Under the pieces are notes generated by a model. That model made no database searches and had not been told where the DNA came from. It saw nothing but the letters and a program-made list of their open reading frames with translations. From positions 1 through 64,000 of the forward strand of contig LJSU01000032.1 of assembly GCA_001314705.1 (NCBI GenBank): a stretch of DNA of 64,000 nt, written 5' to 3'. Shown piece after piece: positions 5,225-25,486 of this stretch. Position numbers and translations under genes: made by a program. This DNA is from Rhodobacteraceae bacterium HLUCCO07 (lineage in GTDB: Bacteria; Pseudomonadota; Alphaproteobacteria; Rhodobacterales; Rhodobacteraceae). Each line of letters begins with the position of its first letter. Within the stretch, counting starts at the first letter, position 1.

Positions 5225-5348
5225 GCCGCGCCGGTCGAGACCTATCGCCCGTCGGCATGTTCTTCCAATGCGAGCAGTTTCTTGGTATCGTTCGGATTGA
5301 GGTTGCGCAGGGCAGGCGCACATAAATCAAAACAGGCAGTGTTCAATC

Positions 5349-6065
5349 ATGTCCCTTATGAAACGGCGTGTCTGCGCCTATCGGCATCTCGACGCGGGAT
5401 GTTCGCGCTGCGGTGGAAGTGGCCTGGTCGAGGGTGCGCATCTGGCCACCCAAGACGGGCAATGGCCCCTGGGTGCATTGGAAGAAGGTGCAAGGCTGCC
5501 GGTTTTCCCGGGTGGAGAAAGACTTTTGACGGCCATCGGTCATGAGCGAATCTGGCTCGACCCGGTAGATTGTCCCAGCGTGGTAAAGCCGATCGCCGTG
5601 CCGGAAGGGGCGTTGGGCAACGCGCACGCGGTTTTGCTGCAGGCCGATACCCGTATCCTGTTCCACGACGAGGCGATGATCGAGCCGCTGGGCGTTGCCT
5701 GGCTGACGCTGCGGGCGGGCGACATGGAAGGGTTTCGGGGGATCGGCCAGGTCGAGCCGCCACGACAGGCGCGGCTTTACCGGCTGCAATTCGAGGATGC
5801 CGAATTCGTCACGGTCGAGGATGCCTTTCAGGTTCTCGTGGTCCCGGTTTTCATCACGATGGACAAGGCAGTCGGGCGGTCGGGGCTGCGCCGGTGGTTC
5901 GGATCGCAGGAGGTCGTTCATCTTGACCAGGAACAGGCCGATGCCTACCTTGCATTCCTCGAAACCGAACTGGGCCGTGCAGACGCGGCCTGGCCGCGCG
6001 ACCGCACGATGTTCAGACCCGGTTCTCGGGCTGGCAAGGAAAGATCGCGGAAAGTGTCGGGATAG
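5349..6065 (+). CDS. Hint-domain (hedgehog/intein-like) protein lacking the usual nucleophile
   Basis: 238 residues. The core matches the Hint_2-type proteins that are frequent in Rhodobacteraceae: block A-like GLVEGAHLATQDG (about 25-37), then VPEGALGN (about 84-91), MEGFRGIGQVEPP, and LYRLQFEDAEFVTVEDA, where a beta strand and His/Asp block would sit. In autoprocessing Hint domains the first residue of block A is Cys or Ser; here that position appears to be Gly (SGLVEG). Self-cleavage is therefore doubtful unless the preceding Ser is used. ATG 5349 or 5358 could be the start; no strong Shine-Dalgarno is visible. A long opposing frame covers the same bases but has no recognisable product. 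Confidence 0.68.
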   Translation: MSLMKRRVCAYRHLDAGCSRCGGSGLVEGAHLATQDGQWPLGALEEGARLPVFPGGERLLTAIGHERIWLDPVDCPSVVKPIAVPEGALGNAHAVLLQADTRILFHDEAMIEPLGVAWLTLRAGDMEGFRGIGQVEPPRQARLYRLQFEDAEFVTVEDAFQVLVVPVFITMDKAVGRSGLRRWFGSQEVVHLDQEQADAYLAFLETELGRADAAWPRDRTMFRPGSRAGKERSRKVSG

Positions 6066-8739: not shown

Positions 8740-9285
8740 CCGTGTTCTCCTCTTGATGCTGATAGGTCAATTGATAAAAGTGTATCTTATCTCATGAATG
8801 CGCCTTCCGTGTTGATTTGAGTCAATGACGGTCGGCGATTCTGGCCAGCACGCAATGCTTGGCATGTCTCAGGATGAGACAAGTTGTTTCGCAACCCGGA
8901 CGAGGCGCGGCCCGGCCACATCCCGGCGCTTCGGTCTGAGCGCGTGCAGGTCATTTTTCGTGTGTGGGCCGGGCCGTGATCCGGCCCCGAACCCAAGATT
9001 TGACGGCGATCCGCGCGACGCGCCAGAACTTGCCTTGCAGCATTGGTGAAAGCGACACGGTTTCGCGATAGATTTGCACCGTGATTGTTCACCAGGTCGA
9101 TCGAAGCACACAGTCGCTGCGCCGCCTCTGTGTGCGGGTTGCCATTCTCGTCAAGATTGGCGGCACGTTCGCTAAACTCGAAAGTGAGCGGTCTACTCAT
9201 ATCCGATCCCAAGATTTGCCTCCAATGCATGGAACCACAAAAGTTAGGCGATGGGAAACCCGAATCCGATTGGGGCCGACAGGTT
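8740..9285. other. Intergenic region with one weak minus-strand frame
   Basis: A minus-strand frame from ATG 9200 (MSRPLTFEFSERAANLDEN...) to 8787 starts plausibly, but its second half is low-complexity Arg/Gly/His, as expected of a non-coding frame, and no Shine-Dalgarno sits at the right distance. I do not call a gene. The AT-richer stretch at 8760-8820 probably contains the promoter of the coiled-coil gene. Confidence 0.4.
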
Positions 9286-10545
9286 CTATGAACGGACCGG
9301 CGGGACGAAATGCGCCATGTTCCGGCCCAGCGTGGCCTTGGCGCGTTTCAATTCCTCTCGTGCGATGACTTTCAGATGCACCTCGTCGGGGCCGTCCAGG
9401 AACCGCATCGCGCGGCCCCATGTCCAAAGATAGCTGAGCGGCGTGTCGGGAGTGATGCCGGCCGCGCCGAACACCTGCATGGCGCGATCGACGACGGTTG
9501 TTTGCAGCCGTGCCGCCATCACCTTGATCGCGGAAACATCGACGCGGGCCGCGCGTGCGCCTTCCATGTCCATCCTCCAGGCGGTTTGCAGCATCAGCAG
9601 ACGTGCAGCGTCGATCTCGATTCGTGACTGTGCGATCCAGTCCTGGATATTGGCGTTGTCGGCCAGCGCCTTGCCGAATGTCTGGCGTTCCAGGCCGCGT
9701 TCGCACATCAGTTCCAGTGCCAGTTCGCATTGTCCGATGGTGCGCATGCAGTGATGGATGCGGCCCGGCCCCAGCCGTGCCTGCGCGAGCATGAAACCGT
9801 CACCCTCGTTGCCAAGCATCGCGTCGACCGGCACACGCACATTGCGCATCACGATCTCGCAATGACCCTCGGGGGCGTGGTGATGCATGATCGGCACGTC
9901 GCGCACCACCTCGAATCCTGGCGTGTCCATCGGTACGAGGATGAAGGAATGCTTGCGGTGCCGGTCGGCATCCGGCGATGCGTCGGATACGCCGAACACG
10001 ATGCAAAGATTGGCATTGGGGTGCTTGGCCCCTGTCGAGAACCATTTGCGTCCGTTGATAACGTATTCATCACCCTCGCGCTGGATGGTGGTGGCCAGGT
10101 TGGTCAGGTCGGACGAGGCCGCATCGGGTTCGGTCAAACCGACAACCGAGCGCAGTTCTCCCCGCAGCAGCGGATCAAGATAGCGCTCTTTCTGCTCGGG
10201 CGTGCCGAATTGCATCAGGATTTCCATGTTGCCGGTATCGGGTGCGTTGCAATTGAACACCTCGGGACTCCACGGCACGCGGCCCATCGCTTCGGCAAGG
10301 GGTGCGTATTCCAGGTTCGTCAGCCGGGTGCCCGGGTGGTGATCCTCCAGCTCGGGCGAGAACATGTTCCACAGCCCGGCCTGGTATGCCTTGGCCTTGA
10401 GCGGTTCGATAACCTCGGTCGGGTAGGCACCGGTATGGGCAATCTCGTGAAACTGCCGGTTCGCAGGCAGAACGTGATCCTCCATGAAATCCTGCAACTG
10501 GCTCAGCATGGCCTTGGTCTTGTCGGAATAGGCGAAATCCATCAT
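9286..10545 (-). CDS. Acyl-CoA dehydrogenase, ACAD10/11-like
   Basis: 419 residues with the three-part acyl-CoA dehydrogenase fold: helical N-terminus, FAD-contact strand GLTEPDAASSD, RKWFSTGA in the middle, and C-terminal helices ending in the GPDEVH motif typical of ACAD10/ACAD11-like enzymes (FLDGPDEVHLKVIARE). ATG 10545 is supported by AGGAG five to six bases upstream; ATG 10542 is adjacent. It lies eight bases after an APH-type kinase gene, the same pairing that is fused in mammalian ACAD10/11 and separate in the levulinate operon of Pseudomonas putida. With the kinase it may convert a 4-hydroxyacyl-CoA to an enoyl-CoA. The substrate is inferred only. Confidence 0.88.
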   Translation of the reverse strand: MMDFAYSDKTKAMLSQLQDFMEDHVLPANRQFHEIAHTGAYPTEVIEPLKAKAYQAGLWNMFSPELEDHHPGTRLTNLEYAPLAEAMGRVPWSPEVFNCNAPDTGNMEILMQFGTPEQKERYLDPLLRGELRSVVGLTEPDAASSDLTNLATTIQREGDEYVINGRKWFSTGAKHPNANLCIVFGVSDASPDADRHRKHSFILVPMDTPGFEVVRDVPIMHHHAPEGHCEIVMRNVRVPVDAMLGNEGDGFMLAQARLGPGRIHHCMRTIGQCELALELMCERGLERQTFGKALADNANIQDWIAQSRIEIDAARLLMLQTAWRMDMEGARAARVDVSAIKVMAARLQTTVVDRAMQVFGAAGITPDTPLSYLWTWGRAMRFLDGPDEVHLKVIAREELKRAKATLGRNMAHFVPPVRS

Positions 10546-10553
10546 GTGCTCCT

Positions 10554-11564
10554 TCAGGGCGTGAGGGGTTTGTCGGTGGACAGCAGCATCTCGGCGAGAT
10601 CCGCGAATTCGGGGGCCAGCGCACCGACGGCGCACGCGTCAGCGCCGGCGGCATGCCCTGCTTCCGCGCGTGCGATGATCCCTTCGAGGATCACGGCCAT
10701 GCGGAACATCGCAAAGGCGCGGTGGAACACGCCCAATGCAGCGGGGCAGCCACCCGCTGCCCGGTATGTATCAAGAAACTCCTCCCGGTCCGGCAGGCCG
10801 AGCGCCTTCAGGTCGAGTCCGGACAACCCGCCCATCTGATCAGGGCGCAGGTCATAGAACATCGACCAATGCGCCAGGTCTGCCAGCGGATCGCCGAGCG
10901 TGGATAACTCCCAATCCAGCACGCCGGTGATGCGCGCGGGTTCGCGTGCAAAGATGACGTTGCCGATGCGATAGTCGCCGTGAACGATCGTGGCGGGGTT
11001 TTCGGGCGGAATGTTGCTCGCGAACCAGTCTGCCATGGCGTCGATGCGGGCATCCTCGCGAGCTTCGAGAGCCTGCCACTGCCCACGCCAGCGGCGCACC
11101 TGCCGGTCGTAATAAGCCGTGGAACGACCGAAATCCTCGAGCCCCAGCGCCTTGATGTCCTGGCTGTGCAGATCGGCAAGAATGCGCGCGGCATCCAGAT
11201 GTACCGCGCGGCGGCCGGCGGCACCCAGTTCCGGCAGGTCGGTGCGGCCCGAAACCGTGCCATCGATCCGCTCCATCAGGTAGAATGCAGTGCCGATCAC
11301 GTCGGGATCGGATTCGAACAGGACCAGCCGCGGCACCGGAACCGCACTGTCTTGCAGCGCGGAGATCACGCGATACTCCCGTTCGATCGCGTGGGCGCTG
11401 TCGAGGGTCGCGCCAAGCGGCTTCTTGCGCAGCACGAGGTCACGCCCATTGCATGTGACGAACCATGTGGGGTTGGACTGTCCACCATCTATCGCGGTCA
11501 GGCGCACCGGCCCACCAAGGACAGGTTCCAGCAAGGCTGGATCAAAATCGGGCTGCCCTGTCAT
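10554..11564 (-). CDS. Phosphotransferase (APH family), ACAD10/11- or LvaA-like kinase
   Basis: About 336 residues. The aminoglycoside-phosphotransferase/choline-kinase fold is intact: N-terminal GGQSNPTWFV and LVLRKKP (ATP Lys), catalytic loop IVHGDYRIGNVIF with the HGDxxxxN motif, and the metal-binding VLDWELSTLGDPLADL. Kinases of this group that sit beside acyl-CoA dehydrogenases phosphorylate hydroxyacyl-CoAs (LvaA) rather than antibiotics. ATG 11564 is chosen because the only upstream in-frame start is a TTG at 11612. It is transcribed away from the GntR gene and is likely controlled by it through the site at 11645. Confidence 0.86.
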   Translation of the reverse strand: MTGQPDFDPALLEPVLGGPVRLTAIDGGQSNPTWFVTCNGRDLVLRKKPLGATLDSAHAIEREYRVISALQDSAVPVPRLVLFESDPDVIGTAFYLMERIDGTVSGRTDLPELGAAGRRAVHLDAARILADLHSQDIKALGLEDFGRSTAYYDRQVRRWRGQWQALEAREDARIDAMADWFASNIPPENPATIVHGDYRIGNVIFAREPARITGVLDWELSTLGDPLADLAHWSMFYDLRPDQMGGLSGLDLKALGLPDREEFLDTYRAAGGCPAALGVFHRAFAMFRMAVILEGIIARAEAGHAAGADACAVGALAPEFADLAEMLLSTDKPLTP

Positions 11565-11644
11565 TCGGTGATCCGAGCGGTTGGTATCATTTTGGCGTGT
11601 TTCGTCTGGCAATATCGGTACATGAAGCCCAATCGATCTGGAGT

Positions 11645-11665
11645 GTCTGACAATGCGACATAATG
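11645..11665 (+). promoter_or_regulatory. Candidate GntR operator, copy 1
   Basis: GTCTGACAAT-GC-GACATAATG, 80 bp upstream of the kinase start. Its near-identical partner lies at 11886-11906 in mirror orientation (19 of 21 positions match). It contains TGACA/GACA half-sites. Assignment to the neighbouring GntR protein is inferred. Confidence 0.65.
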
Positions 11666-11700
11666 CGCGGCACGTCGACGGTCAATCACTTTCATGACAT

Positions 11701-11724
11701 GCGCCTGCGGGCTCTTGCAGGCGC
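11701..11724. repeat. Hairpin in the divergent kinase/GntR spacer
   Basis: GCGCCTGC (11701-11708) and GCAGGCGC (11717-11724) form a perfect 8-bp stem with an 8-nt loop. No T-tract follows directly. It lies between the two operator-like sites in the 444-bp spacer, which has no supported gene, so it may end an unseen transcript or insulate the two promoters. Confidence 0.6.
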
Positions 11725-11885
11725 TGTCGGGCTTTCCTGCAGGCCACTGAAATAGCTGTCGCAAACATCAGAAATACTTGCGTCTCTGCCTTTGAAGGCG
11801 ATGGTTTGCCCATGGCGCAGTGAAGTGTCACGGAAACGTTTGGGGAGGAGGGATTGGGCTGTTGACAGAATGTGGGAATCGCGAT

Positions 11886-11906
11886 CATTATGTCATATTG
11901 TCAGAC
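11886..11906 (-). promoter_or_regulatory. Candidate GntR operator, copy 2
   Basis: On the minus strand this reads GTCTGACAAT-AT-GACATAATG, differing from copy 1 only at the two central bases. It lies 102 bp upstream of the GntR start. With copy 1 it makes a symmetric pair about 220 bp apart, suited to autoregulation and to repression of both divergent operons. Confidence 0.65.
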
Positions 11907-12008
11907 CATAACGGATCTTCGGATGCTGAGTTGCCGCCCTTCCATCACCTGTGCTCGCCGGGCCCGGCTTGTGCCTGTCAGTTGCGCGTCGCGTGGCGGG
12001 AGTTTTGC

Positions 12009-12749
12009 ATGAGCCTGACAGCCAAACCGATCCACGTCACCTACGCGTATCAGCAGATCGCCGAAGAGATCGAGGCGCAGATCCTGCGCGGTGAACTCAA
12101 GCCAGGCGATCAGCTTCCGGGAGAAGCGGAATTGGGCGCGCTGTTCGGCGTTACCCGCTCGACCGTGCGCGAAGGGTTGCGACAACTGGAAAGCGACGGC
12201 CTGGTGCACCGTCCCTCGCCCCGGCGGCTCGAGGTGGCCGTGCCGCAGGCCGACCAGCTGACGACGCGCGCTGGTCGGGCGATGGCGCTGATGAAGGTGA
12301 CCTTCCGAGAGCTGTGGGAGGTGACCATGGTAACCGAGCCCCTGGCCACACGGCTGGCGGCGCAGCGTGCCTCAAGCGACGAAATCGATGCCCTTCAGGC
12401 GTTGCATGGCGATCTGGTTGGCAGCGAAGGCGAGATGGCGCGCACGATCGAGTTGGATGAACGGTTCCACTCCCGGGTTGCGGAAATGGGTCATAACCGT
12501 GTGCTCGGGCTGGCGCGCGAGCCGATCGCGCTCCTGCTCTTTCGCGGTTTTGCCCAGATCGCGCCCTTCGCGCCGAAATTCTACAAGCGCCAGATCGAGG
12601 CCCATTCGAACATCATTGCGGCGCTGCGTGATCGTGATGCCGACCGCGCCGAAAAATGGGCGCGCATGCATATCGAGGATTTCTGGCGCGGTGCCCAGAT
12701 CGCAGGACTGGAAGATGAGATCGCCTTGAATGCCCGGGCGTTGTCATAG
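12009..12749 (+). CDS. GntR-family regulator, FadR/FCD type
   Basis: 246 residues. The N-terminal winged HTH (about 13-75; LPGEAELGALFGVTRSTVRE is the recognition-helix region) is followed by an all-helical FCD ligand domain containing the metal/acid-binding pattern ELDERFH...H. FCD-type GntR repressors respond to small organic acids or acyl-CoAs. ATG 12009 is preferred because GGGAG lies eight bases upstream and homologues start near this point. It heads the operon with two crotonases, a TRAP transporter and an acyl-CoA synthetase, and is divergent from the kinase and dehydrogenase genes, making it the likely controller of both. Confidence 0.9.
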   Translation: MSLTAKPIHVTYAYQQIAEEIEAQILRGELKPGDQLPGEAELGALFGVTRSTVREGLRQLESDGLVHRPSPRRLEVAVPQADQLTTRAGRAMALMKVTFRELWEVTMVTEPLATRLAAQRASSDEIDALQALHGDLVGSEGEMARTIELDERFHSRVAEMGHNRVLGLAREPIALLLFRGFAQIAPFAPKFYKRQIEAHSNIIAALRDRDADRAEKWARMHIEDFWRGAQIAGLEDEIALNARALS

Positions 12750-12785
12750 GTGTTGGACCCACACATGATACAGGATTCTAGGACA

Positions 12786-13676
12786 ATGACTGGCCAGACG
12801 ATCACGACCGACCTTGACAGTGGGGTCATGACCCTGACGTTGAATCGACCTGACCGCATGAATGCCTTTACGCGGGTCATGATGGACGAGATGCTGGCGG
12901 CCCTTGATGCGGCCGATGCCGACGACGATGTGCGTGCCGTCATCGTCACCGGGACCGGGCGCGGCTTCTGCGCGGGCGTGGACCTTGACGACGACAACGC
13001 CTTTACCGCGGCGCGGGTCGATCCGGCGGCGACAGATCCGGATGTGTGGGACGATGCGGGCAATCGGGACATGGGCGGAATCCTGGCGCTTCGGCTGTTC
13101 AACTGCCTGAAGCCGGTGATCGCGGCGGTCAACGGCCCTGCCGTGGGCATCGGGGCTACCATGCAACTGCCGATGGACATCCGCATCGCGTCGGAGACCG
13201 CACGTTTCGGCTTTGTCTTTGCCCGGCGTGGAATCGTGCCCGAGGCAGCTTCGAGCTGGTTCCTGCCACGCCTCGTGGGCATGAGCCAGGCGCTGGAATG
13301 GTGCTATTCGGGCCGTGTGTTTGATGCGGACGAGGCGCGAGCGGGCGGGCTGGTGCGCTCGGTGCACGCGCCGGGCGACCTGCTGGAGGCGGCCAATTCG
13401 GTCGCCCGCGAAATCGCGGACAACACGGCGCCGGTGTCCATCGCGCTGACCCGTCAGATGATGTGGCGCATGGCCGGAGCCGATCACCCGATGCAGGCGC
13501 ATCGAATCGACAGTCGCGCCATTGCTGCGCGCAGTTCATCCGGTGACGCTGCCGAAGGTGTGGCCAGTTTCCTTGAGAAGCGCCCGCCTGCCTTTTCCGA
13601 CAGGGTTTCGCGTGACATGCCGGGCTTCTACCCTTGGTGGCAAGAACCGGGCTGGAGCGCAGGAGGGGACAAATGA
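12786..13676 (+). CDS. Enoyl-CoA hydratase/isomerase family protein
   Basis: About 296 residues, crotonase fold. The oxyanion-hole strand GFCAGVDLDD and NGPAVGIGATMQLPMD are present, followed by ARRGIVPEAASSWFLPR with the hydratase-type catalytic Glu. A longer-than-usual C-terminal tail ends in FYPWWQEPGWS. The start is uncertain: ATG 12786 or 12765, with GTG 12750 also in frame. It starts 36 bp after the GntR stop and overlaps the next crotonase by four bases (ATGA). It probably hydrates an enoyl-CoA produced by the acyl-CoA dehydrogenase of this locus. Confidence 0.88.
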   Translation: MTGQTITTDLDSGVMTLTLNRPDRMNAFTRVMMDEMLAALDAADADDDVRAVIVTGTGRGFCAGVDLDDDNAFTAARVDPAATDPDVWDDAGNRDMGGILALRLFNCLKPVIAAVNGPAVGIGATMQLPMDIRIASETARFGFVFARRGIVPEAASSWFLPRLVGMSQALEWCYSGRVFDADEARAGGLVRSVHAPGDLLEAANSVAREIADNTAPVSIALTRQMMWRMAGADHPMQAHRIDSRAIAARSSSGDAAEGVASFLEKRPPAFSDRVSRDMPGFYPWWQEPGWSAGGDK

Positions 13677-14452
13677 GCGACGCAATCCTGATCGAACGCG
13701 TGGGTGCGGTGACGACCCTGCGGCTGAACGATCCCGCCACGATGAACGCGATGACGCCGCAAATGGCGCAGGACTTGCGCACGCTATTTCATTCGGAACC
13801 CGCAAATGGCGCGCGCGCGATCGTTTTGGCGGGCAGTCCGCGGGCGTTTTCCACCGGTGCAAATCTCAAGGCGGCGATGCCCGAGGATATTGCAGGATTC
13901 GACGTGGGGGCCACTCTGGAAGAGGATTACAACCCGCTGATGCAAACGATCCGCGATCTGCCGGTGCCGCTGATTTCGGTGGTGCGGGGCGCTGCGGCCG
14001 GGGTGGGGGCGTCGCTGGCGTTGTCCTGCGATATTATCGTGGCGGGCAAGGGCGCCTACTTCCTCGAGGCTTTCGCGAGAATCGGCTTGGTTCCTGATGG
14101 TGGGGCAACATGGTTGCTGACCCGTGCGGTCGGTCGCGTGCGCGCGATGGAGATGATGCTGCTGGCCGAAAAGATCTCGGCAGAACAGGCCTTCGACTGG
14201 GGGCTGGTCACCCGCCTGACCAAAGATGACGTGGCGGAACACACCGCGCAGAACATTGCGCAAAAGCTGGCCGAGGGGCCCAGCCAGAGTTATGCGTTGA
14301 TCCGCAAGGCGGCTTGGAGCGCGGCCGACAGCGATTTTGACACCGCGCTGGAGACCGAGCGCCGGTTACAGAGAGCGGCGGGCGAGACGCGTGATTTTGC
14401 CGAAGGCCTGGCAGCATTCCGCGAGAAGCGCCAGGCGCGGTTCGAAGGATGA
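13673..14452 (+). CDS. Enoyl-CoA hydratase/isomerase, PaaG-like
   Basis: 259 residues, crotonase fold, with AGGAGG at 13661-13666 before ATG 13673. The oxyanion-hole segments AFSTGANLK and RGAAAGVGASLALSCD are intact. The catalytic loop reads ARIGLVPDGGATWLL: an Asp stands where true hydratases have Glu, as in PaaG-type isomerases (GLxPDxGGTWLL). A double-bond isomerase function is therefore more likely than hydration. It is translationally coupled to the upstream crotonase, and having both enzymes fits breakdown of an unsaturated or hydroxylated acyl chain. Confidence 0.88.
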   Translation: MSDAILIERVGAVTTLRLNDPATMNAMTPQMAQDLRTLFHSEPANGARAIVLAGSPRAFSTGANLKAAMPEDIAGFDVGATLEEDYNPLMQTIRDLPVPLISVVRGAAAGVGASLALSCDIIVAGKGAYFLEAFARIGLVPDGGATWLLTRAVGRVRAMEMMLLAEKISAEQAFDWGLVTRLTKDDVAEHTAQNIAQKLAEGPSQSYALIRKAAWSAADSDFDTALETERRLQRAAGETRDFAEGLAAFREKRQARFEG

Positions 14453-14570
14453 GCCATCGGTGCGCTGGAAGGGGCCTGCAGCGGGCGATCAGTGACGCCA
14501 CATGATGAATTTCCGGCCACCCAGGGCCGGGCAAGACTGGAAAACCATGGTCAAACGGGAGGAATCCACC

Positions 14571-15707
14571 ATGAAAACGACAATCAAGACCTTGCTTGCC
14601 GGAGCATCCGTTCTGGCGGGCGCTGGTGCGGCCAATGCCGCCAATCTCAGCTTTGCCGGGGGCTGGCCGCCCAACTCGGCGCCAACCGCCAAGATCGAGG
14701 ACTACGCCAAGGCGGTCGAGGAATATAGCGACGGCGATGTCACCGTGAAAGTGTTTCCCTTGTCCCTGCTGAGCTTTTCCGAAATCAACGCCGGTCTGCG
14801 CGACGGTATCGCCGATGTGGCGGGCAACCTGCTGGCCTATTTCCCGGGAGAATATCCGACGCTTAACATGCTGGCCGAGTTTTCCGAGTTGGTCGAGCTG
14901 GAGGAATTCGCCGGCGAGCTGAGCAGCCTCGCCTTTACCGGCGCCATCATGGAATACGTGATGAACGATTGCCCCGCCTGCATGGACGAGATGTCGGCGC
15001 AGAACCAGGTGTATCTGGGAGCGTCCTCCACCACCTCCTACGTGCTGCAATGCGCGGTGCCTCTGACCGGTACGGACGATCTCGAGGGCAAGCGCATCCG
15101 CGCCGCGGGCGCATATTGGTCGCGTTGGGCGGAGTCGGTCGACGCGACACCGGTCTCGATGTCGGTAAACGAAACGCTTGAGGGCCTCAGCCAGGGCGTC
15201 GTCGATTGTACCATGTCGAACACCGCTGATTTCGTGAATTTCGGCTTCATCGACGTGGTGGACTATGTCTATGTCGGCGCGCCGGGTGCACAGTTCAACG
15301 TACCCTTCACGATGAACAAGGACAGCTGGAACGGTCTTTCTGATGATTCCAAGGCGGCGATGATGCGCGCGCATGCCGAGTTGGCCGCCGATATCGCCTG
15401 GGTCTATATCGAAGAGGGTCGTGCCGGACGCGAACGTGCGCCCGACATGGACATCGAATACGGCCCCGCCCCTGATGACATCGTGGCGATGAACCGCCAA
15501 TTCATCGAGAATGACAAGGACGCCATCGCCGAAATCTATAACGAGCGGTTCGGCATTGAAACCGGCGCCGAGGCCGCCACCGCCCTGACCGAGAGCCTCT
15601 CGCGCTGGACCGAGCTGACCAAGGATGTCGACAGCGGCGAGGAACTGGCCGAGATCTACTGGGACGAGATCTTTTCGAAGATCGATGTCGCCAGCTACGG
15701 CAAGTAA
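14571..15707 (+). CDS. dctP: TRAP transporter substrate-binding protein (DctP family)
   Basis: 378 residues. Cleavable signal peptide of about 23 residues (MKTTIKTLLAGASVL...GAANA, cut before ANLSFAGG). The mature protein has the DctP fold, including GKRIRAAG and the NTADFVNFGFIDV ligand region. ATG 14571 is chosen for GGAGG at 14558-14562 and the signal peptide; an in-frame ATG at 14502 is spurious. It delivers a periplasmic carboxylate to the DctQM permease encoded next. Two cysteines in NDCPACMDE and others further on could form disulfides. The ligand is unknown but is presumably the acid activated by the CoA ligase at the operon end. Confidence 0.92.
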   Translation: MKTTIKTLLAGASVLAGAGAANAANLSFAGGWPPNSAPTAKIEDYAKAVEEYSDGDVTVKVFPLSLLSFSEINAGLRDGIADVAGNLLAYFPGEYPTLNMLAEFSELVELEEFAGELSSLAFTGAIMEYVMNDCPACMDEMSAQNQVYLGASSTTSYVLQCAVPLTGTDDLEGKRIRAAGAYWSRWAESVDATPVSMSVNETLEGLSQGVVDCTMSNTADFVNFGFIDVVDYVYVGAPGAQFNVPFTMNKDSWNGLSDDSKAAMMRAHAELAADIAWVYIEEGRAGRERAPDMDIEYGPAPDDIVAMNRQFIENDKDAIAEIYNERFGIETGAEAATALTESLSRWTELTKDVDSGEELAEIYWDEIFSKIDVASYGK

Positions 15708-15730
15708 CATCACGTTCCGTGACGAACACT

Positions 15731-15753
15731 GGGCGCCACCACTCTTGGCGCCC
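15731..15753 (+). repeat. Intercistronic hairpin after dctP
   Basis: GGGCGCCA (15731-15738) pairs exactly with TGGCGCCC (15746-15753) around a 7-nt loop, in the 72-bp gap between the binding-protein and small-permease genes. With no T-tract it probably acts as a 3' stabiliser that raises binding-protein mRNA above that of the permease. Confidence 0.7.
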
Positions 15754-15779
15754 GGCCCCTTGGCTGATGGAGACAACCC

Positions 15780-16316
15780 ATGTTCATGATCGGCAGAGCC
15801 TTGTCGCATCTGGCGAAATTCGCGTCCCTGATCGGGGCGATCTGTGTCGTTCTGATGATGCTGCACGTCACGGCCGACGTGCTGGGACGGTATCTGTTCA
15901 ACGCGCCCGTGCCCGGCACGATCGTGGTGGTGGCCAACTACTACATGGTCTTCGTCGCCTTCATCGCGCTGGGCGTGGCAGAGGAAAAGCGCGCTCATAT
16001 CTCGGTCGAGATTCTGACCGACCTGATGCCACCACGGCCGCGCAACGTGCTTTCGGTGTTCTCGGGCGTGCTCACGGTTGCGGTTCTGGTGGTCGTGATG
16101 ATCGGTGGCTATACCGAGGCTGTCAGCAAAACGCGTGGCGGCGCCACGATGGAGCAGGGCAGCCAGCTGGTCGAGATCTGGCAAAGCTTCTGGTTTGTTC
16201 CTGTGGGCGCCGCGTTGATGGCGCTGATCGCGGCCTATCGTGTGATCGCCACCGTAACCGGTGCGCAAAACGGCCTGAGCGAAACCGATACGGATGTGAA
16301 ATTCATAAATGACTGA
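15780..16316 (+). CDS. dctQ: TRAP transporter small permease (DctQ family)
   Basis: 178 residues with four predicted membrane helices (starting about 15, 50, 90 and 135). The conserved VTADVLGRYLFNAPVPGT region after helix 1 is typical of DctQ. The ATG follows GGAGA by six bases. It overlaps dctM by eight bases. It forms the membrane complex with DctM and is driven by a sodium or proton gradient. Confidence 0.9.
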   Translation: MFMIGRALSHLAKFASLIGAICVVLMMLHVTADVLGRYLFNAPVPGTIVVVANYYMVFVAFIALGVAEEKRAHISVEILTDLMPPRPRNVLSVFSGVLTVAVLVVVMIGGYTEAVSKTRGGATMEQGSQLVEIWQSFWFVPVGAALMALIAAYRVIATVTGAQNGLSETDTDVKFIND

Positions 16317-17616
16317 TGTTGAAATCGGCCTGACCGGCCTTGCCGCACTGATTGCCCTGATCGCGGTGCGCGTGCCCATCGGAATCGCGCTGATCGCGGT
16401 GTCTTTCACCGGGCTTTACGTTTTGATGGGGCCGCGCGTGGCCTGGGGCTCGATGAGCATCATCCCCTATAAATTCGCCTCGAGCTGGCTACTCAGCTCG
16501 ATCCCGATGTTCCTGTTCCTGGGCTTCATCAGCTATCACACGCAGCTGACACGCGGCATGTTCAACGCCGCGCGCATCTGGCTGGCCAGCCTGCCGGGTG
16601 GACTGGCGATCGCGTCGATCTTCGGCTCGGCCGGGTTCGCCGCTGTCTCTGGCTCGTCCATCGCGTGTTCGGCGGCGATGGGGCGCATCGCCATACCCGA
16701 GATGATGAAGCAGCGCTATCACCCGGAACTGGCGACCGGCACGGTGGCGGTGGCTGGCACGATCGGCGCGCTCATTCCACCCTCGATCATCCTGATCCTT
16801 TATGGCGTTATCGCGCAGATCTCGATCTCGGCCCTGTTTCTGGGTGGGATCGTCGCCGGCCTGATGACGGCAGTGGGGTATACGCTGGTTGTGCTGCTGC
16901 GGGTGTGGCTGAACCCCGACCTTGCCCCCGAGCGTGACTCCAGCGTGACGCTGCGCGAGAAGCTGATAGCGCTGCGTGAGACCTGGCCCATTCTGCTGAT
17001 CATCATCGGTATCTTCGGCGGATTGTTCGGCGGGGTATTTACACCGACCGAGGCGGGCGCCGTGGGTGCGTCTCTGGCCTGCCTCGTGGCCACTGTCAGC
17101 GGAAGGATGACTTTGGACCGCTTTATGACCGCCGCGCGCGAGACGCTGATGACGACCGCCGCGCTGCTGATCATCGCCATTGGTGCCAGCCTGCTGACAC
17201 GGTTCCTGGCGCTGTCCGGGGCGGGCGATTTCCTTTCCGAAGGCATCCTTTCCATCGCGTCCAGCCCGGTGTTGCTGATGATCGGCATCGTATGTGTCTA
17301 TCTGTTGATGGGCATGTTTCTGGAACCCATCGGCGCCATGCTCCTGACGCTGCCGATCATCCTGCCAGTGGTCGATGCCGCGGGCTGGAGCCTGCTGTGG
17401 TTCGGCATCGTGCTGACCAAGCTGCTGGAAATCGGGATGATCACGCCGCCCATCGGCATGAACGTGTTTGTCATCAAAAGCGTAGTGGGCAACCTCGTGA
17501 CAACCTCGGCCATCTTCCGCGGCGTGGCCTGGTTCATCGTGATGGACCTGGTGCTGGTTGCGATCCTGTGCGCCTTTCCGGACCTGGTGCTGTGGCTGCC
17601 GAGCCTGAGGGACTGA
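16309..17616 (+). CDS. dctM: TRAP transporter large permease (DctM family)
   Basis: 435 residues, hydrophobic throughout with about 12 membrane segments. DctM features include the GSAGFAAVSGSSIACSAAMG region, AVAGTIGALIPPSIILILYG and FTPTEAGAVGA. It is the ion-coupled transport subunit, translationally coupled to DctQ through an 8-base overlap. It lies 61 bp ahead of the acyl-CoA synthetase gene, separated by a hairpin. Confidence 0.93.
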   Translation: MTDVEIGLTGLAALIALIAVRVPIGIALIAVSFTGLYVLMGPRVAWGSMSIIPYKFASSWLLSSIPMFLFLGFISYHTQLTRGMFNAARIWLASLPGGLAIASIFGSAGFAAVSGSSIACSAAMGRIAIPEMMKQRYHPELATGTVAVAGTIGALIPPSIILILYGVIAQISISALFLGGIVAGLMTAVGYTLVVLLRVWLNPDLAPERDSSVTLREKLIALRETWPILLIIIGIFGGLFGGVFTPTEAGAVGASLACLVATVSGRMTLDRFMTAARETLMTTAALLIIAIGASLLTRFLALSGAGDFLSEGILSIASSPVLLMIGIVCVYLLMGMFLEPIGAMLLTLPIILPVVDAAGWSLLWFGIVLTKLLEIGMITPPIGMNVFVIKSVVGNLVTTSAIFRGVAWFIVMDLVLVAILCAFPDLVLWLPSLRD

Positions 17617-17626
17617 ACCGAACGGG

Positions 17627-17646
17627 CCGGCGCGGGGCCGCGCCGG
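17627..17646 (+). repeat. Intercistronic hairpin after dctM
   Basis: CCGGCGCGG (17627-17635) and CCGCGCCGG (17638-17646) make a 9-bp stem with a two-base spacer (nearly a pure palindrome). It sits between dctM and the acyl-CoA synthetase and has no T-tract, so read-through is expected. Confidence 0.6.
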
Positions 17647-17677
17647 TTGAGCAACGACAAGACAAGGGGATGAAACC

Positions 17678-19261
17678 ATGCAAACCGAACAACTGATCCG
17701 CCGCGCCCGCGGGCAACAACTGGCCGACATGCTGCGCCGTTCGGCGCGTCGCGTGCCCGAAAAGGTGGCACTGGTTTTTCGCGACCAGACCGACACGTTC
17801 GCCCAACTGGACACCGCGGTAAACCGCGCAGCCAACGCGCTGGCCGCACGGGGCGTTGCCATGGGCGACCGCGTGGCGTTGTTCACGCACAACAACCGCG
17901 CCTTCGTCGTGCTGCGCTACGCGCTCGCGCGGCTGGGGGCGGTCACGACGCCCGTGAACTTCATGCTGACCGCGCCCGACGTGGCCTACATCCTGGGTCA
18001 TTCCGGCGCAAAGATGATGATTGCCGAGGATGCGCTTTGCGAAACCGCCGACGCCGCCCTGACCGAGATGGGGCAGGGCGACATGCCGCGTTTCGCCATC
18101 CCGCACGCGGGCGTGACCCCGCCCGACGGCTGGCAGCCGGTTGCGGACATTCTGGATCATGATGACACCACCGAGGTCTGGCACGACGTTCATGCCGACG
18201 ATCCTATCCAGATGATGTATACCAGCGGCACCGAAAGCCGACCCAAGGGCGCGCTGCTGACCTCGGGGGCGCTTTATGCACAGTATTCCAGTTGCATCAT
18301 CGACGGGGAAATGACCGAGGACGCCGTGTCGCTGCATTGTCTGCCGCTGTTTCACTGCGCACAGCTGGATTGCTTTCTCAGCCCGGATCTCTATCTGGGC
18401 GTGACGTCGATCCTGCACGACAAGGCCGACCCGGCGGCGATGCTGGAAGCCATCGAGGCGCATGGCGTGACCAAGCTTTTCTGCCCGCCGACGATCTGGA
18501 TCGCCCTGCTGCGCCATCCCGACTTCGACAAGCGTGACCTCAGCAGTCTGAACGCGGGCTATTACGGCGCGTCGATCATGCCCACCGCGGTGATCGAGGA
18601 ACTGTCGCAGCGCCTGCCGCAGATGCGGCTGTTCAACTTCTATGGCCAGACGGAAATGGCGCCGCTCGCCACCATCCTGAAACCACAGGACCAACTCCGC
18701 AAGCTGGGCTCGGCCGGACGCCCCTCGCTGAACGTCGAAACGCTGGTGGTGGATGACGATGATATCCCCGTCCCCGTGGGCGAGGTGGGTGAGATCGTGC
18801 ACCGCAGCCCGCACCTGATCACCGAGTATTACAACGATCCCGAAAAGACGGCCGAGGCCTTCCGCAATGGCTGGTTCCATAGTGGCGACCTGGGCCGTTT
18901 CGATGAGGACGGATACCTGTATGTGGTCGACCGCAAGAAGGACATGATCAAGACCGGGGGCGAGAACGTGGCCAGCCGCGAGGTTGAAGAAGCGATCTTT
19001 CGCCATCCCGACGTGGCCGAGGTCGCGGTGTTCGGTGTGCCGCATCCCAAGTGGATCGAGGCCGTGACTGCCGTGGTCGTGCCGAAGTCAGGCGCCACAT
19101 TGAGCGCAGATGCGGTGATGGCGTATTGCCGCGACGCGCTGGCCCATTTCAAGGCTCCGAAACATATCGAAGTCACGGATCAACTGCCCAAGAACGCCAG
19201 CGGCAAGATCCTGAAACGCGATCTTCGGGTCACGTATGCGGGGGTATTCGACGAAGGATAG
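17678..19261 (+). CDS. Acyl-CoA synthetase (AMP-forming)
   Basis: 527 residues of the ANL adenylating superfamily: P-loop MMYTSGTESRPKG (about 179-191), NFYGQTEMAP (A5 motif), WFHSGDLGRFDEDGYLYVVDRKKDMIKTGGENV (A7-A8 region) and the C-terminal catalytic Lys in KNASGKILKRDLR. It activates a carboxylic acid with ATP and CoA. As the last gene of the GntR-crotonase-TRAP operon, it most likely activates the acid imported by DctPQM. The Ser-Arg within the P-loop (SGTESRPK, where SGTTGxPK is usual) is a small departure that is common in this subgroup. Confidence 0.9.
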   Translation: MQTEQLIRRARGQQLADMLRRSARRVPEKVALVFRDQTDTFAQLDTAVNRAANALAARGVAMGDRVALFTHNNRAFVVLRYALARLGAVTTPVNFMLTAPDVAYILGHSGAKMMIAEDALCETADAALTEMGQGDMPRFAIPHAGVTPPDGWQPVADILDHDDTTEVWHDVHADDPIQMMYTSGTESRPKGALLTSGALYAQYSSCIIDGEMTEDAVSLHCLPLFHCAQLDCFLSPDLYLGVTSILHDKADPAAMLEAIEAHGVTKLFCPPTIWIALLRHPDFDKRDLSSLNAGYYGASIMPTAVIEELSQRLPQMRLFNFYGQTEMAPLATILKPQDQLRKLGSAGRPSLNVETLVVDDDDIPVPVGEVGEIVHRSPHLITEYYNDPEKTAEAFRNGWFHSGDLGRFDEDGYLYVVDRKKDMIKTGGENVASREVEEAIFRHPDVAEVAVFGVPHPKWIEAVTAVVVPKSGATLSADAVMAYCRDALAHFKAPKHIEVTDQLPKNASGKILKRDLRVTYAGVFDEG

Positions 19262-19890
19262 GTCCGCTTGCCAAATCGGCCACGGCGAGCGCGCTTTGAT
19301 CGCTGAGCATGAGTTTGTCCGAGAGGATCCGGTAAGGCTTTTCCAGCATCAAAGCGGTCGCGTCATTGATGTTGTGGGCGATATCGGCGCCGATGCCGGT
19401 GCGCGTAGGGTGACACCCCTGGAGTCGGGCCAGTGAGCCCTTGTTTTCGACAATCGGCGCCCGGAAGCGGTTTCCCTCGAGTTCTCTCGGACGGATGCCG
19501 CACAATCTGACAAGACCGTCCTTGCCGCAAGCCCGGTGGTCGTGCCGGGGCGGGCTTTACCGGCGTGGTGGGGCACCTGTCGCGTCTGCGCCATTCGTCA
19601 TCCTCGCGCACGCCCCTTTCTTGATATGCCGCGATCGCGCCCGACCATGCGGCAAATCGCACGCGAATGCGGGTACTGGGTCATCGGATGCGCGAGCTTG
19701 ATCGAGGCATCGATTTTCCCGCTGCGTGTGCGTCGCCATGCAAGTTCGATGTTGCCGGACATCATGCCCGGCCGGACGTGTTCAGTCTGCATGTAAACCG
19801 GGCGCGGCAATCGCCGATTGCGTTCGAATAAATGGACACAAACCCGGACATGGCCAGCCCCATCCCGCGAGCCTGAGTCTGGCAATGAAA
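19262..19890. other. Intergenic region, possible decayed coding remnant on the minus strand
   Basis: No intact gene is supported. Two minus-strand frames look partly protein-like: 19885-19598 (with MQTEHVRPGMMSGNIELAW) and 19505-19230 (with GIGADIAHNINDATALML), in different frames, as might remain from a frameshifted gene. I cannot name the family. The plus-strand operon ends at 19261 without an obvious intrinsic terminator. Confidence 0.35.
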
Positions 19891-19920
19891 CTCGCCCTCG
19901 CAGAATTCTGCGAGGGCGAG
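19891..19920 (-). terminator. 30-bp perfect palindrome, terminator of the beta-oxidation operon
   Basis: CTCGCCCTCGCAG (19891-19903), AATT, then CTGCGAGGGCGAG (19908-19920). On the minus strand it starts 13 bases after the stop of the FadB-like gene and is followed by TTTCATT, so it is most likely that gene's terminator. Confidence 0.75.
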
Positions 19921-19933
19921 ACGTGCTTGCGCC

Positions 19934-22138
19934 TCAGGCGGCCTTGGCCTGGTCCGGGGCAAATCGACCGTAGAAGGTTTCACCCTTCTCGGCCATCTCG
20001 CGCAGGAGCGCGGGGGGCGTGAAGCGATCGCCGAATTTCGCGGCCAGTTCCTCGCAGCGTTCGACCGCGTAAGGCGCGCCGATGATGTCGAGCCAGGAGA
20101 ACGGCCCGCCCGACCATGGCGCGAAACCCCAAGCGAGAACCGCGCCCACGTCGCCTTCGCGGATGTCTTCGAGCACGCCTTCCTCCAGCGCGCGCACCGC
20201 TTCGAGCACCTGCGCGAACATCAGCCGGTCCTGCACCTCTTGCAGGGGGGGCTGCTCATCGGCCAGCGGGTACTTGTCGAGGATGCCCTTCCAGTATCCC
20301 AGCCGCTTGCCGTTTTCGTCATAGTCGAAATACCCGGCCTTGGACTTGCGACCGAGGCGGCCCTGCTCCTCCATCCAGAACACCAGGTCGTCGGCCTCGG
20401 AGGCCGGGTATTCATTGCCCATCGCCTCCTTGGTGGCGCGGGTGATCTTGGCGGCGAGGTCGATCGAGGTTTCGTCGCCAAGCTGGATCGGCCCGACCGG
20501 AAAGCCCAGTTGCCGCGCGGCATGGTCGATCAGCGGCATGGCGACGCCCTCGGTGACCATGCGCGTGGCCTCGTTGCCATAGGGGATGATGCAACGGTTG
20601 CAGTAGAAGAACCGCGCATCGTTGACCACGATCGGCGTTTTGCGGATCTGGCGCACGTAGTCGAGCGCTTTGGCCACGGCGCGCGGGCCGGTTTCGCGGC
20701 CCTTGATGATCTCGACCAGGAACATCTTTTCCACCGGCGAGAAGAAGTGGATGCCGATGAACTGCTCGTGGCGCTTGCTGGCCTTGGCAAGGTCGGTGAT
20801 CGGCAAGGTCGAGGTGTTGGAGGCAAAGATGCACTCCTCGTCGATCACCTCTTCAACCTTCCGGGTCATGTCGGCCTTCACTTTCGGGTCTTCGAACACC
20901 GCCTCGATGATCAGGTCGGCACCCTCGAGCGCGGAAAGATCCGCGGTGGCGTTGATCAGGCCAAGCGCCTTTTCCTTTTTCTCGGGTGTGGCCTTGCCGC
21001 GCTTGATCCCCTTGTCGAAATAATCGGCCGAATAGGATTTGCCGCGTTCGGCGGTCTCGTCGTCGCGGTCGATCAGCACGACCTCGATCCCCGCCATGGC
21101 CGAGACCAGTGCGATGCCCGAGCCCATCATGCCCGCCCCCAGAACGCCGATCTTCTTGACCGACTGGTCGGGAACGTCCTTCGGTCGAACGGCACCTTTC
21201 TCCAATGCCTCCTTGTTGACGAAGAGCGAGCGCATCATCGCCGCAGACGATGGGTTCATCAGAATGTTGGTGAACCAGCGTGCCTCGATCCGGAGTGCGG
21301 TGTCGAACGGCACCTGCGCGCCCTCGTAAACCGCAGAAAGCAGTGCCTTGGCCGCCGGGAAGGCGCCCTGGGTCTTGCCATGCACCATGGCCGAGGCACC
21401 CACGAAGGTCGTGAATCCCGCCGGGTGATAGGGGGTGCCGCCGGGCATCTTGTAGCCCTTGGCATCCCAAGGTTTCACGAGATCGGCGTCCTTGGCATTC
21501 AACACCCATTCTTTCGCGGCAGCGAGCGGATCGTCGGCCACCTCGTCGATGAGACCGGCCTTTTGCGCCTTGTCGGGCGCGACCATCTTGCCTTCGAGCA
21601 GGTAGGTCGAGGCGCCCATTGCGCCCAGTTTGCGCACCAGCCGCGTGGTGCCGCCGGCACCGGGGAAGATGCCGACCATGATCTCGGGCAGGCCGATCTT
21701 GGCCTTGGGATTGTCGGCGGCAAAGATGCGATGCGTGGCCAGCGGCAACTCGAGCCCGATGCCCGCAGCGGTGCCGGGCAGGGCGGCGGCGATGGGTTTG
21801 CCGCCCTTCTTGGTCTTGAGGTCCATGCCCGCAAGCTCGATCTTGCGCAGGAGCCCGTGCATCTGCATCACGCCCTCGAAAAGGCCGCGCGCCGGTTCGT
21901 CGCCCGCGTTGGTCTTCATGTCGGCCAGAACGGTCAGGTCCATGCCGCCGGCAAAGCTGTCGGGCTTGCCGGAGGTGATGACGATGCCCTTGACGGCGTC
22001 ATCGGCAAGCGCCTCGTCGATCAGCTTGTCGAGTTCGAGCAGCGCGTCGGCGCGCATGACGTTCATGCTCTTGCCGGGCACGTCCCAGGTGATGACAGCG
22101 ACGCCATCGGCGCCTTTTTCCATTGTGAAATCAGCCAT
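19934..22138 (-). CDS. fadJ: Multifunctional enoyl-CoA hydratase / 3-hydroxyacyl-CoA dehydrogenase
   Basis: 734 residues. The N-terminal crotonase domain (1-300) carries [15 protein letters not shown] (Glu 130) and [15 protein letters not shown] (Glu 152). The central NAD-binding domain has [14 protein letters not shown] (GxGxxG about 331-337), with FSPVEKM and the C-terminal dimer domains following. It catalyses the hydration and NAD-dependent oxidation steps of beta-oxidation. ATG 22138 follows AGGAG by eight bases. It is 19 bp downstream of the thiolase with which it would form the trifunctional complex. FadB and FadJ types cannot be separated by eye; the symbol is the closer guess for a gene following an acetyl-CoA acetyltransferase. 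Confidence 0.93.
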
Positions 22139-22157
22139 GTCTTGTGCTCCTTTGCGC

Positions 22158-23369
22158 TCACACGCGTTCGATGATGGTGGCCGCGCCCATGCCCGAGCCG
22201 ATGCAGAGCGTGGCAAGGCCGACTTCCTTGTCGGCGCGTTCGAGTTCGTCGAGCAGAGTGCCGAGGATGATCGCACCGGTCGCGCCCAGCGGGTGGCCCA
22301 TGGCGATCGAGCCGCCGTTGACGTTGACGCGTGCGTGATCGACGCCGAAGGACTGTTCGAAAAGCAGCACGACGCTTGCGAAGGCTTCGTTCACCTCGAA
22401 GAGGTCGATATCGCCGATCTCCATGCCGTTCTCGGCGAGGATCTTTTTCGTCACGGGCACGGGACCGGTGAGCATGATAGTTGGGTCGGTACCGATCTTG
22501 GCGGTGGCGCGGATGCGGGCGCGGGGCTTCAGCCCGTGTTTCTCACCGAATTCCTTGTTGCCGATCAGAACGGCTGCTGCACCATCGACGATGCCCGAGG
22601 AATTGCCGGCGTGGTGGATATGGTTGATCCGCTCTAGCTCGGGATATTTCAGAAGCGCGACATTGTCGAAGCCCGGCATCTGTTCGCCGATCTGCTGGAA
22701 GCTGGGTTTCAGCGCGCCCAGTGTCTGCATGTCGGTGCCCGGGCGCATGTATTCGTCGCGATCGAGGATCGGCAGGCCGTTCACGTCGTGCACCGGTACG
22801 ATCGAGCGGGCGAAACGCTTGTCGTCCCAAGCGGCCTTGGCGCGTTTCTGGCTCTCGACGGCCATGGCATCGGCGTCGTCGCGCGAGAAACCGTATTTCG
22901 TGGCGATGATGTCGGCGCCGATACCTTGCGGCACGAAATAGTGGTCGAAGGTGATTTGCGGATCGACAGCGATGGCGCCGCCGTCGCTGCCCATGGGCAC
23001 GCGGGACATGCATTCGACGCCGCCCGCGATATAGCCGTCGCCGGCGCCGCCGCGCACCTGGTTGGCGGCGACGTTCACGGCCTCGAGTCCCGAGGCGCAG
23101 AAGCGGTTGATCGAGAGGCCGGGGATGGATTCATCAAGATCCGAGGCCAGCACGGCGGTGCGCGCAAGGCAGGCGCCTTGTTCACCGATCTGCGTGACGT
23201 TACCCCAGACCACGTCCTCGACGGCGTGGCCTTCGAGATTGTTGCGATCCTTCATGGCGTTGAGCGCGATGGCAGAGAGCCGCGCGGCTGTCACCTCGTG
23301 CAGGCTGCCATCGGCGCGGCCCTTGCCGCGCGGTGTGCGCACGGTGTCGTAGATATAGGCGTCGGTCAT
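22158..23369 (-). CDS. Acetyl-CoA C-acyltransferase (thiolase)
   Basis: 403 residues. Thiolase catalytic residues are visible: nucleophilic Cys in [13 protein letters not shown] (about 89), His in GHPLGATG and the second Cys in [10 protein letters not shown]. It performs the thiolytic cleavage of 3-ketoacyl-CoA. ATG 23369 is supported by AGGAGACCAAA immediately upstream. The gene lies between a glutathione S-transferase-like gene (26 bp upstream) and the FadJ-type partner. Confidence 0.93.
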
Positions 23370-23395
23370 TTTGGTCTCCTTTTCGCGGGTTCCGG

Positions 23396-24028: not shown

Positions 24029-24085
24029 CGGTGGCTCCCTGTTTGCAAATGCGGACCGGGGGTTTCACACCCCCGGACCCCCGTG

Positions 24086-24282: not shown

Positions 24283-24329
24283 TCCGCGAAGCGTTCTTAA
24301 GGGGACATCATGCGCTGTCGTGGGATGCA

Positions 24330-25466: not shown

Positions 25467-25486
25467 GTGCTCCCCTCCCAAGGATA

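Follow-up and report, generated by a model that had tools for sequence, protein, structure and literature searches.

That mammals remove a 4-hydroxyl group by way of phosphorylation was established only in 2024-2025; for bacteria, the case that we found in print is the use of levulinate. According to excerpts of PMC12440821 and PMC11342911, mammalian enzymes and their bacterial relatives phosphorylate 4-hydroxyacyl-coenzyme A (CoA) and then eliminate the phosphate; facts on the levulinate (lva) operon (work of Rand et al., 2017) are taken from excerpts of PMC12440821, PMC11342911, PMC10945470 and PMC6692424 as a set. Here we analyze a nine-gene unit at positions 9286-19261 of a 64,000-nucleotide stretch of DNA (the window; contig LJSU01000032.1, positions 1 to 64,000) from the 3.43 Mb genome of Rhodobacteraceae bacterium HLUCCO07. 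It joins an APH-fold kinase and an enzyme of the acyl-CoA dehydrogenase fold (ACAD) with a GntR-family regulator, two crotonases (ECH1 and ECH2), a TRAP transporter (DctPQM) and an AMP-forming CoA ligase. Sequence comparisons make it reasonably probable that the unit is a dedicated catabolic regulon under GntR control, which would take up a 4-hydroxy acid, or a longer acid hydroxylated at an even position, activate it with CoA, phosphorylate it at the 4-position, eliminate the phosphate and pass the product to beta-oxidation.

The lva operon of Pseudomonas putida and its counterpart in Pseudomonas citronellolis likewise encode an APH kinase, an ACAD with a catalytic Asp and a CoA ligase, with phosphorylation followed by phosphate elimination. 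The unit described here differs in having TRAP import, a GntR regulator and two isomerase-like crotonases, and the lva transporter LvaF/LvaG belongs to another class than TRAP. No LvaB, LvaD-like short-chain dehydrogenase/reductase (SDR) or histidine phosphatase is encoded among the nine genes, the rest of the genome not having been searched for them, and the 11-bp spacing between the kinase and the ACAD leaves no room for an LvaB-type gene. An earlier note on this DNA had held that a dedicated TRAP intake sets the locus apart from lva; this holds, and the lack of LvaD in the unit is a further difference. In mammals, ACAD10 and ACAD11 are fused proteins, whereas the two domains, with the named active-site residues of both kept, are here separate proteins with dedicated uptake and regulation. 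The azelate locus azeTSL-azeR of the marine bacterium Phycobacter, as excerpted from PMC10945470, also combines a TRAP transporter with a nearby CoA ligase, but it has an IclR regulator and a thioesterase, and no kinase/ACAD11 pair is mentioned in the excerpts.

The reaction type is already known; the import-linked, operator-controlled arrangement was not found among the matches listed in the literature searched (open-licence papers only). A dedicated locus with its own importer would give the removal of 4-hydroxyl groups an ecological role. Little is known about the substrate specificity of TRAP transporters (PMC10945470, excerpt), and the locus offers a route to naming a TRAP ligand, with a predicted operator that would make inducer screening simple.

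Gene content and layout

The nine genes lie at 9286-19261, as the earlier note had stated, and none of their reading frames is interrupted:

9286-10542, minus strand: ACAD of the ACAD10/11-LvaC type, proposed to eliminate phosphate from 4-phosphoacyl-CoA (phmmer and active-site residues)
10554-11564, minus strand: kinase of the APH fold and the ACAD10/11-LvaA type, proposed to phosphorylate 4-hydroxyacyl-CoA (phmmer and residues)
12009-12749, plus strand: GntR/FCD-family regulator, proposed repressor of both arms (Pfam GntR 8e-20, FCD 1.3e-20)
12750-13676, plus strand: crotonase ECH1 of the NCBIfam PRK08260 group, proposed to be of the enoyl-CoA isomerase type (NF006109, 453 bits, cut-off 320)
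13673-14452, plus strand: crotonase ECH2, PaaG-like, proposed isomerase (NF004635 300 bits and PaaG model 250 bits, both below their cut-offs)
14502-15707, plus strand: TRAP solute-binding protein DctP (Pfam DctP 9e-21)
15780-16316, plus strand: TRAP small permease DctQ (Pfam DctQ 1e-26)
16309-17616, plus strand: TRAP large permease DctM (Pfam DctM 2e-77)
17678-19261, plus strand: AMP-forming acyl-CoA ligase (NCBIfam PRK08316, 777 bits, cut-off 663)

Pfam matched all nine proteins to the expected family and NCBIfam gave related models for eight, with none for DctQ; the complete TRAP transporter and the AMP-forming ligase claimed earlier are hereby confirmed. The layout is divergent, with the ACAD and the kinase reading leftwards and the GntR gene, the two crotonases, DctPQM and the ligase reading rightwards from a gap of 444 bp between the kinase and GntR. 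The frames of ECH1 and ECH2 overlap by 4 bp and those of DctQ and DctM by 8 bp, and all three TRAP components are encoded in one operon with close or overlapping frames. The start of the GntR gene was picked by the length of homologues and is thus itself a prediction, and ECH1 may start at 12750, 12765 or 12786. The G+C content of the unit (62.5%) is similar to that of the window (63.4%).

Active-site signature of the kinase and the dehydrogenase

In phmmer searches against solved structures, the ACAD matched 4hr3, a putative ACAD (1.3e-114), and mouse ACAD11 8v3u (1.1e-108), with the best match of another kind at 2e-41; the kinase matched 3dxp (1.3e-69) and mouse ACAD11 8v3v (4.7e-54). Identity to mouse ACAD11 is 44% for the ACAD and 36% for the kinase. 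The residues named in excerpts of the ACAD11 structure paper (PMC12440821) are R626, R631, H634, R637 and D753, along with the HCMR motif, for the ACAD domain, and R86, R176, D220 and N225 for the kinase domain. The window ACAD aligns with mouse R626, R631, H634, C635, M636, R637 and D753, the last being the catalytic Asp found instead of Glu. The phosphate-holding R626 and the HCMR motif are kept as RLGPGRIHHCMR; in the same alignment they are lacking from L009 and from the ACAD of L095 (L-labels denote stretches or loci, and G-labels genomes of the same family, G000 being the source). The kinase keeps the helix-C Arg and Glu, R176, D220 and N225, the helix-C Arg being matched by its position beside the Glu (84 in our own count, R86 in PMC12440821), and its loop, described earlier as an intact HGDxxxxN, reads HGDYRIGN.

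All seven ACAD positions are kept in 23 of 25 aligned rows (mouse, window and 23 picked from 54 harvested), the misses being the L095 ACAD and L009, and all five scored kinase positions in 21 of 22 (mouse, window and 20 picked from 51 harvested), the miss being L095_5167. When a stricter motif test was applied to all 54 ACAD rows, 43 passed; it did not pick up L088 and L097, where the motif RLSPARLTHCMR was read directly, as well as L089, L030 and L031, which keep the Asp with an altered motif, and the other six failing rows have neither Asp nor motif. Repeat loci (L002, L007, L035-L038 and L069, the last judged to be the same genome as that of L021) were dropped before the identity, tree and residue work. 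The assignment of both proteins to the ACAD10/11-LvaA/LvaC type with a phospho-elimination signature is supported by these residues, and the ACAD10/11-like dehydrogenase that the earlier note had paired with a kinase is borne out in the active sites of both. For relatives, excerpts of PMC11342911 report phosphorylation in cells with 4-hydroxyhexanoate and none with 5- or 6-hydroxyhexanoate, and a Burkholderia kinase/ACAD pair that can replace the ACAD10 domains.

In the ACAD tree, the window protein groups with six relatives of the same locus type (98/91) and the protein of a Salipiger plasmid joins them (100/100); two Azoarcus/Caballeronia proteins fall in another group, and mouse ACAD11 and a copy on contig C14 of the source genome itself in a third (98/93). 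The kinases of the locus type form one branch with Salipiger inside it (100/98), apart from the mouse, lva-like and own-paralogue kinases. After near-copies had been thinned from the 54 ACAD and 51 kinase rows harvested, 38 and 39 rows, respectively, went into the trees, counting those of mouse and window. As stand-ins for lva we used the Azoarcus/Caballeronia clusters (phosphatase, kinase, SDR, ACAD), which resemble the levulinate locus of Pseudomonas citronellolis. The phylogenetic comparison proposed in the earlier note, made with the mouse enzyme and with the lva-like stand-ins in place of LvaA and LvaC, gave a separate clade for the unit.

The source genome also contains a second ACAD11-type enzyme (C14:77736-78923; L102), 47-49% identical to the window ACAD and nearer to mouse ACAD11 (50.5%), and a second ACAD11-type kinase (C10:9799-10737; L103), 42% identical, on a contig other than that of the second ACAD.

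Conserved linkage in related genomes

The linkage of kinase, dehydrogenase, GntR, crotonases, TRAP and ligase, suggested earlier as a point to check, was found with all nine genes together in six genomes, namely the source and five others (LH_M48, EhC02, counted as G764, MSM13, G092 and G137). All nine lie on one strand in G092 and G137 (L039, L040), with GntR first, the kinase/ACAD pair second and third, and ECH1 thereafter. The kinase has a match at E<=1e-40 in 174 of 295 genomes of the same family, and among the matches listed only those of G092 and G137, besides the window, exceed 52% identity. For DctP, 38 of 394 same-family genomes have a match at E<=1e-40 and eight, the window's included, at 56% identity or more. 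ECH1 and ECH2 stand beside DctP in all eight, an ACAD orthologue in five (G000, G092, G137, G764 and G220), and both kinase and ACAD in four, G220 being without the kinase. A search with ECH1 (E<=1e-60) yielded 16 places in 13 of the 394 genomes, and the best eight places (at least 73% identity) belong to the same eight genomes. In addition, each of ten genomes tested has at least one further ACAD match (E<=1e-60) apart from that of the unit, and the four extra ACADs extracted, from G128, G215, G735 and the L020 genome, keep the signature; genomes deficient in the pair may borrow an ACAD from elsewhere in the genome.

A second AMP-forming ligase, 33-35% identical to that of the unit, follows the ACAD in L019, L021, L022 and L070, precedes GntR in L071 and follows GntR in L043; it is not present in the window.

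A palindrome in both divergent promoter regions

Starting from 10-mers that the loci have in common upstream of GntR, we arrived at the palindrome TTAGTGTCNGACACTAA, which occurs with at most three mismatches in all 13 related loci that have an orthologous GntR (L019, L020, L021, L022, L039, L040, L067, L068, L070, L071, L087, L088 and L097). It was not found in L043, where the GntR protein is only 46% identical. In whole-genome scans, sites with 0-2 mismatches occur only at the unit in 6 of 11 genomes (G215, G735, G764, G220 and the L020 and L022 genomes); the site at the unit has three mismatches in G092, G128, G137 and the L019 genome, the first three of which also have three-mismatch sites elsewhere. 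The reversed pattern gave 0 to 9 matches per genome. A matrix built from 16 sites of other loci was scanned over the 64-kb window, and its two best scores both fall in the 444-bp gap between the kinase and GntR, the third best being 5.7 bits:

11640-11656, no strand: kinase-side predicted operator (13.1 bits, the highest matrix score anywhere in the 64 kb)
11862-11891, plus strand: sigma-70-like promoter of the GntR arm, TTGACA-18-CATTAT (promoter scan)
11895-11911, no strand: GntR-side predicted operator, immediately following the -10 box (12.2 bits, the second highest score in the 64 kb)

Because the promoter scan of 9000-20000 gave 5 promoter-like sites against a mean of 2.6 in shuffles, the GntR-arm promoter is supported mainly by its place before the palindrome. 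On the other side, TTGACC-N17-TATGTC, found by eye and not reported by the scan, lies just upstream of the operator and reads towards the kinase; a -10-like box followed by the palindrome is a layout common to the kinase side of L019, L021, L022, L070 and L039. The position of the palindromes just after -10-like boxes suggests repression, and we infer that the GntR protein binds the predicted palindromes as a repressor. Since the linkage is conserved and the palindrome is shared by both divergent promoter regions, the unit is probably one dedicated regulon, in support of the single regulated unit envisaged in the earlier note.

A separate observation concerns G220 (L070, 7947-8317), where there is no kinase between GntR and the ACAD, yet the palindrome is kept before the ACAD.

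Crotonases

ECH1 and ECH2 were aligned with the FadJ protein of the window (19934-22276), which has both hydratase glutamates. At the positions that we take to be catalytic in hydratases, ECH1 has Thr and Phe and ECH2 has Ser and Phe; at the acidic position, presumably equivalent to the Asp of PaaG and the Glu of ECI2, ECH1 has Glu (PEAASSW) and ECH2 has Asp (PDGGATW). Both look like isomerases rather than hydratases, since they lack the hydratase glutamates and have an acidic residue at the PaaG/ECI2 position; the NCBIfam name for the ECH1 group is enoyl-CoA hydratase. The previous description of ECH2 as PaaG-like with an Asp stands, and that of ECH1 as hydratase-like with a Glu does not, its Glu being located at the PaaG/ECI2 position. 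Isomerase crotonases would suit substrates with double bonds or rings.

Replacement pairs on plasmids and in other clusters

Among plasmid records, 64 have a DctP match and 46 of these fall in the 60-80% identity band, where all of the matches listed are from Pseudosulfitobacter pseudonitzschiae, most with a diatom source. In the two P. pseudonitzschiae records examined, GntR-ECH1-ECH2-DctPQM-ligase is followed by an ACAD, an SDR, a second ACAD, a phosphotransferase and a thiolase, the second record having the same gene order and ACAD motif as the first. The cluster on NZ_CP086932 (LOE16_RS20585-20530) shares this core and the palindrome with the unit, but its kinase and ACAD are of other subfamilies and the second ACAD, the SDR and the thiolase are in line with them. 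In L088, the second ACAD is 34% and the kinase 42% identical to those of the window, and the signature is kept (RLSPARLTHCMR, DGPTEVH, HGDFRCDN). A non-orthologous pair with the same active site on the same core argues that the substrate of the core needs dehydroxylation chemistry.

A Salipiger abyssi plasmid carries orthologues of the ligase, GntR, kinase and ACAD (63-79%) together with the palindrome; its two TRAP systems are located some 17 kb and more away and are distantly related (DctP 28-33%). In G134 and Sulfitobacter pontiacus, kinases are found together with ECH1, ECH2 and a TRAP transporter of this type in larger clusters. One kinase/ACAD pair of S. pontiacus is without the signature, and G134 has a signature-bearing ACAD beside a kinase 94% identical to a signature-bearing S. 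pontiacus kinase.

In S. pontiacus pDSM110277_b (L095, 5116-7875), a phosphotransferase, a DUF6285 protein and an ACAD form a trio in which neither the kinase nor the ACAD has the residues of ACAD11; the cluster around it is large and also encodes two thiolases, several SDRs and a CaiB-type transferase. None of the open-licence papers listed in a search mentions DUF6285. On a plasmid of Ruegeria sp. AD91A (L092, 6955-14367), the close neighbors of another ACAD11-type kinase/ACAD pair include an IclR regulator, a GMC oxidoreductase and a TRAP transporter other than that of the unit.

Proposed pathway and alternative explanations

We propose that a carboxylic acid would be taken up by DctPQM and converted to its CoA thioester by the ligase. 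The APH kinase would phosphorylate the 4-hydroxyl, at once or after rounds of beta-oxidation have brought a hydroxyl from carbon 6, 8 or another even position to carbon 4; because beta-oxidation removes two carbons per round, 6- and 8-hydroxy acids should also pass through a 4-hydroxyacyl-CoA. In the ACAD11-type flavoenzyme, the Asp would take the C2 proton and the phosphate would be expelled, giving an enoyl-CoA with no net oxidation. Homology to characterised relatives is the basis for both of these steps. The two crotonases might then shift double bonds into the 2-position, a step that we infer, like the identity of the substrate, and general beta-oxidation enzymes would finish the degradation, with a FadJ/thiolase/ACAD set adjoining at 19934-27521. 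GntR would block both divergent promoters via the palindromes after the -10-like boxes until an inducer releases it.

Several observations weigh against this interpretation. G215, G128 and G735, three of the eight genomes with a close DctP, have the GntR-ECH1-ECH2-TRAP core without the kinase/ACAD pair, G735 being also without a ligase orthologue; G220 (L070) is without a kinase in the stretch examined, and the Sulfitobacter locus L020 has a kinase with no ACAD within 10 kb beyond it, its ligase being cut by the contig end. It does not follow from the locus that the acid taken up already carries a 4-hydroxyl: three genomes are without the pair, and a longer acid could give rise to the 4-hydroxyacyl-CoA in the course of its degradation. 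Both palindromes in the window are degenerate (4 and 5 mismatches), there is no site within three mismatches in the source genome, and one of 10 shuffled windows gave a single matrix score above 13; the evidential weight lies in the finding of both top sites in one gap, because single high scores arise in shuffled sequence. The substrate could not be read from DctP homology, as the best solved relatives are distant (best 3e-19) and no ligand is transferable, and the AlphaFold model of DctP (five sequences) has a pLDDT of 38.

These gaps could also mean that the system is modular, with a core of GntR, ECH1, ECH2, TRAP and ligase that degrades an unsaturated or cyclic acid without dehydroxylation and a pair that is an optional add-on for a hydroxylated member in some strains. 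We consider this rather unlikely, but we give it weight because the ECH1 relatives outside the core have a signature-bearing ACAD and a kinase nearby in only two of eight places (G134 and G282), and because in G698 (L129) ECH1-ECH2 is found with a ligase, a thiolase, an SDR and an ordinary ACAD, and no kinase. The three pairless cores also fit a modular system, as does the orientation of the pair, which is divergent from the core in the window, L019, L021 and L022, with one pair gene missing in L020 and L070. Against a modular system speak the palindrome, which is also located before the pair, the same-strand position of the pair between GntR and ECH1 in G092 and G137, and, in P. pseudonitzschiae, a core followed by another pair whose active site is the same.

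It is improbable that the unit is a levulinate operon of the lva type, in which case a reductase from elsewhere in the genome would have to convert levulinate or another 4-keto acid to the 4-hydroxyacyl-CoA. The kinase/ACAD chemistry and the CoA ligase are as in lva, but the three lva genes looked for among the nine are missing there, as noted above, the kinase and the ACAD fall outside the Azoarcus/Caballeronia lva-like clade, and the transporter is of another class. Slightly more improbable still is a pair that has drifted to another reaction, for example at a different hydroxyl position or on a dicarboxylate such as azelate, with a likeness to ACAD11 in fold only. The lower identity of the window ACAD than of the second copy to mouse ACAD11 (44% versus 50.5%) would fit such a drift, and TRAP import of azelate has been proposed in a marine bacterium (PMC10945470, excerpt); against it stand the seven of seven ACAD and five of five kinase scored positions that are kept, and the IclR regulator, thioesterase and otherwise different gene set of the azelate locus in the same excerpts. 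Azelate was rejected as a candidate substrate on account of this difference in make-up. The reading of the unit as a GntR-controlled regulon for 4-hydroxy or longer even-position hydroxy acids is the one that we favor.

Leads to the substrate and neighboring genes

In S. abyssi (L087, 4208-5704), a flavoprotein with the motif FEGESIHTSFW, which we take to be of the Baeyer-Villiger type, is encoded beside the ligase, and in Sphingomonas liriopis an SDR, a P450 and a similar flavoprotein (L023, 14516-16318) follow the kinase and the ACAD. The S. abyssi flavoprotein has a match in 5 of 11 genomes searched, at 32-41% identity except in G128 (77%), where the flavoprotein and three neighbors form a module that stands apart from the core, on the same contig. 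The source genome has no match at E<=1e-40, and a lactone-making gene as a part of the pathway was set aside as only a lead. As leads, the flavoproteins near the Salipiger ligase and the Sphingomonas pair point to lactone-derived acids, and the many plasmid carriers that came from diatoms suggest algal products; neither lead settles the matter. A more tentative extension, possible but on the whole doubtful, is that these loci, whether plasmid-borne or chromosomal, represent a regulon family of diatom-associated and other marine Rhodobacterales for hydroxy acids derived from lactones or oxylipins and in part unsaturated, with a specific TRAP importer, paired isomerases and interchangeable kinase/phosphate-eliminating modules that would have been recruited independently at least two times.

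The set adjoining the unit at 19934-27521 consists of a FadJ-type protein, a thiolase, a glutathione S-transferase and two ordinary ACADs, and would provide a ready beta-oxidation set; a set of this type was not seen beside the unit in the mapped core loci of relatives. On the other side of the unit, at 4577-6065, the window encodes a Hint-domain protein (Pfam Hint_2) that adjoins a frame with a below-cut-off match to sulfotransferases.

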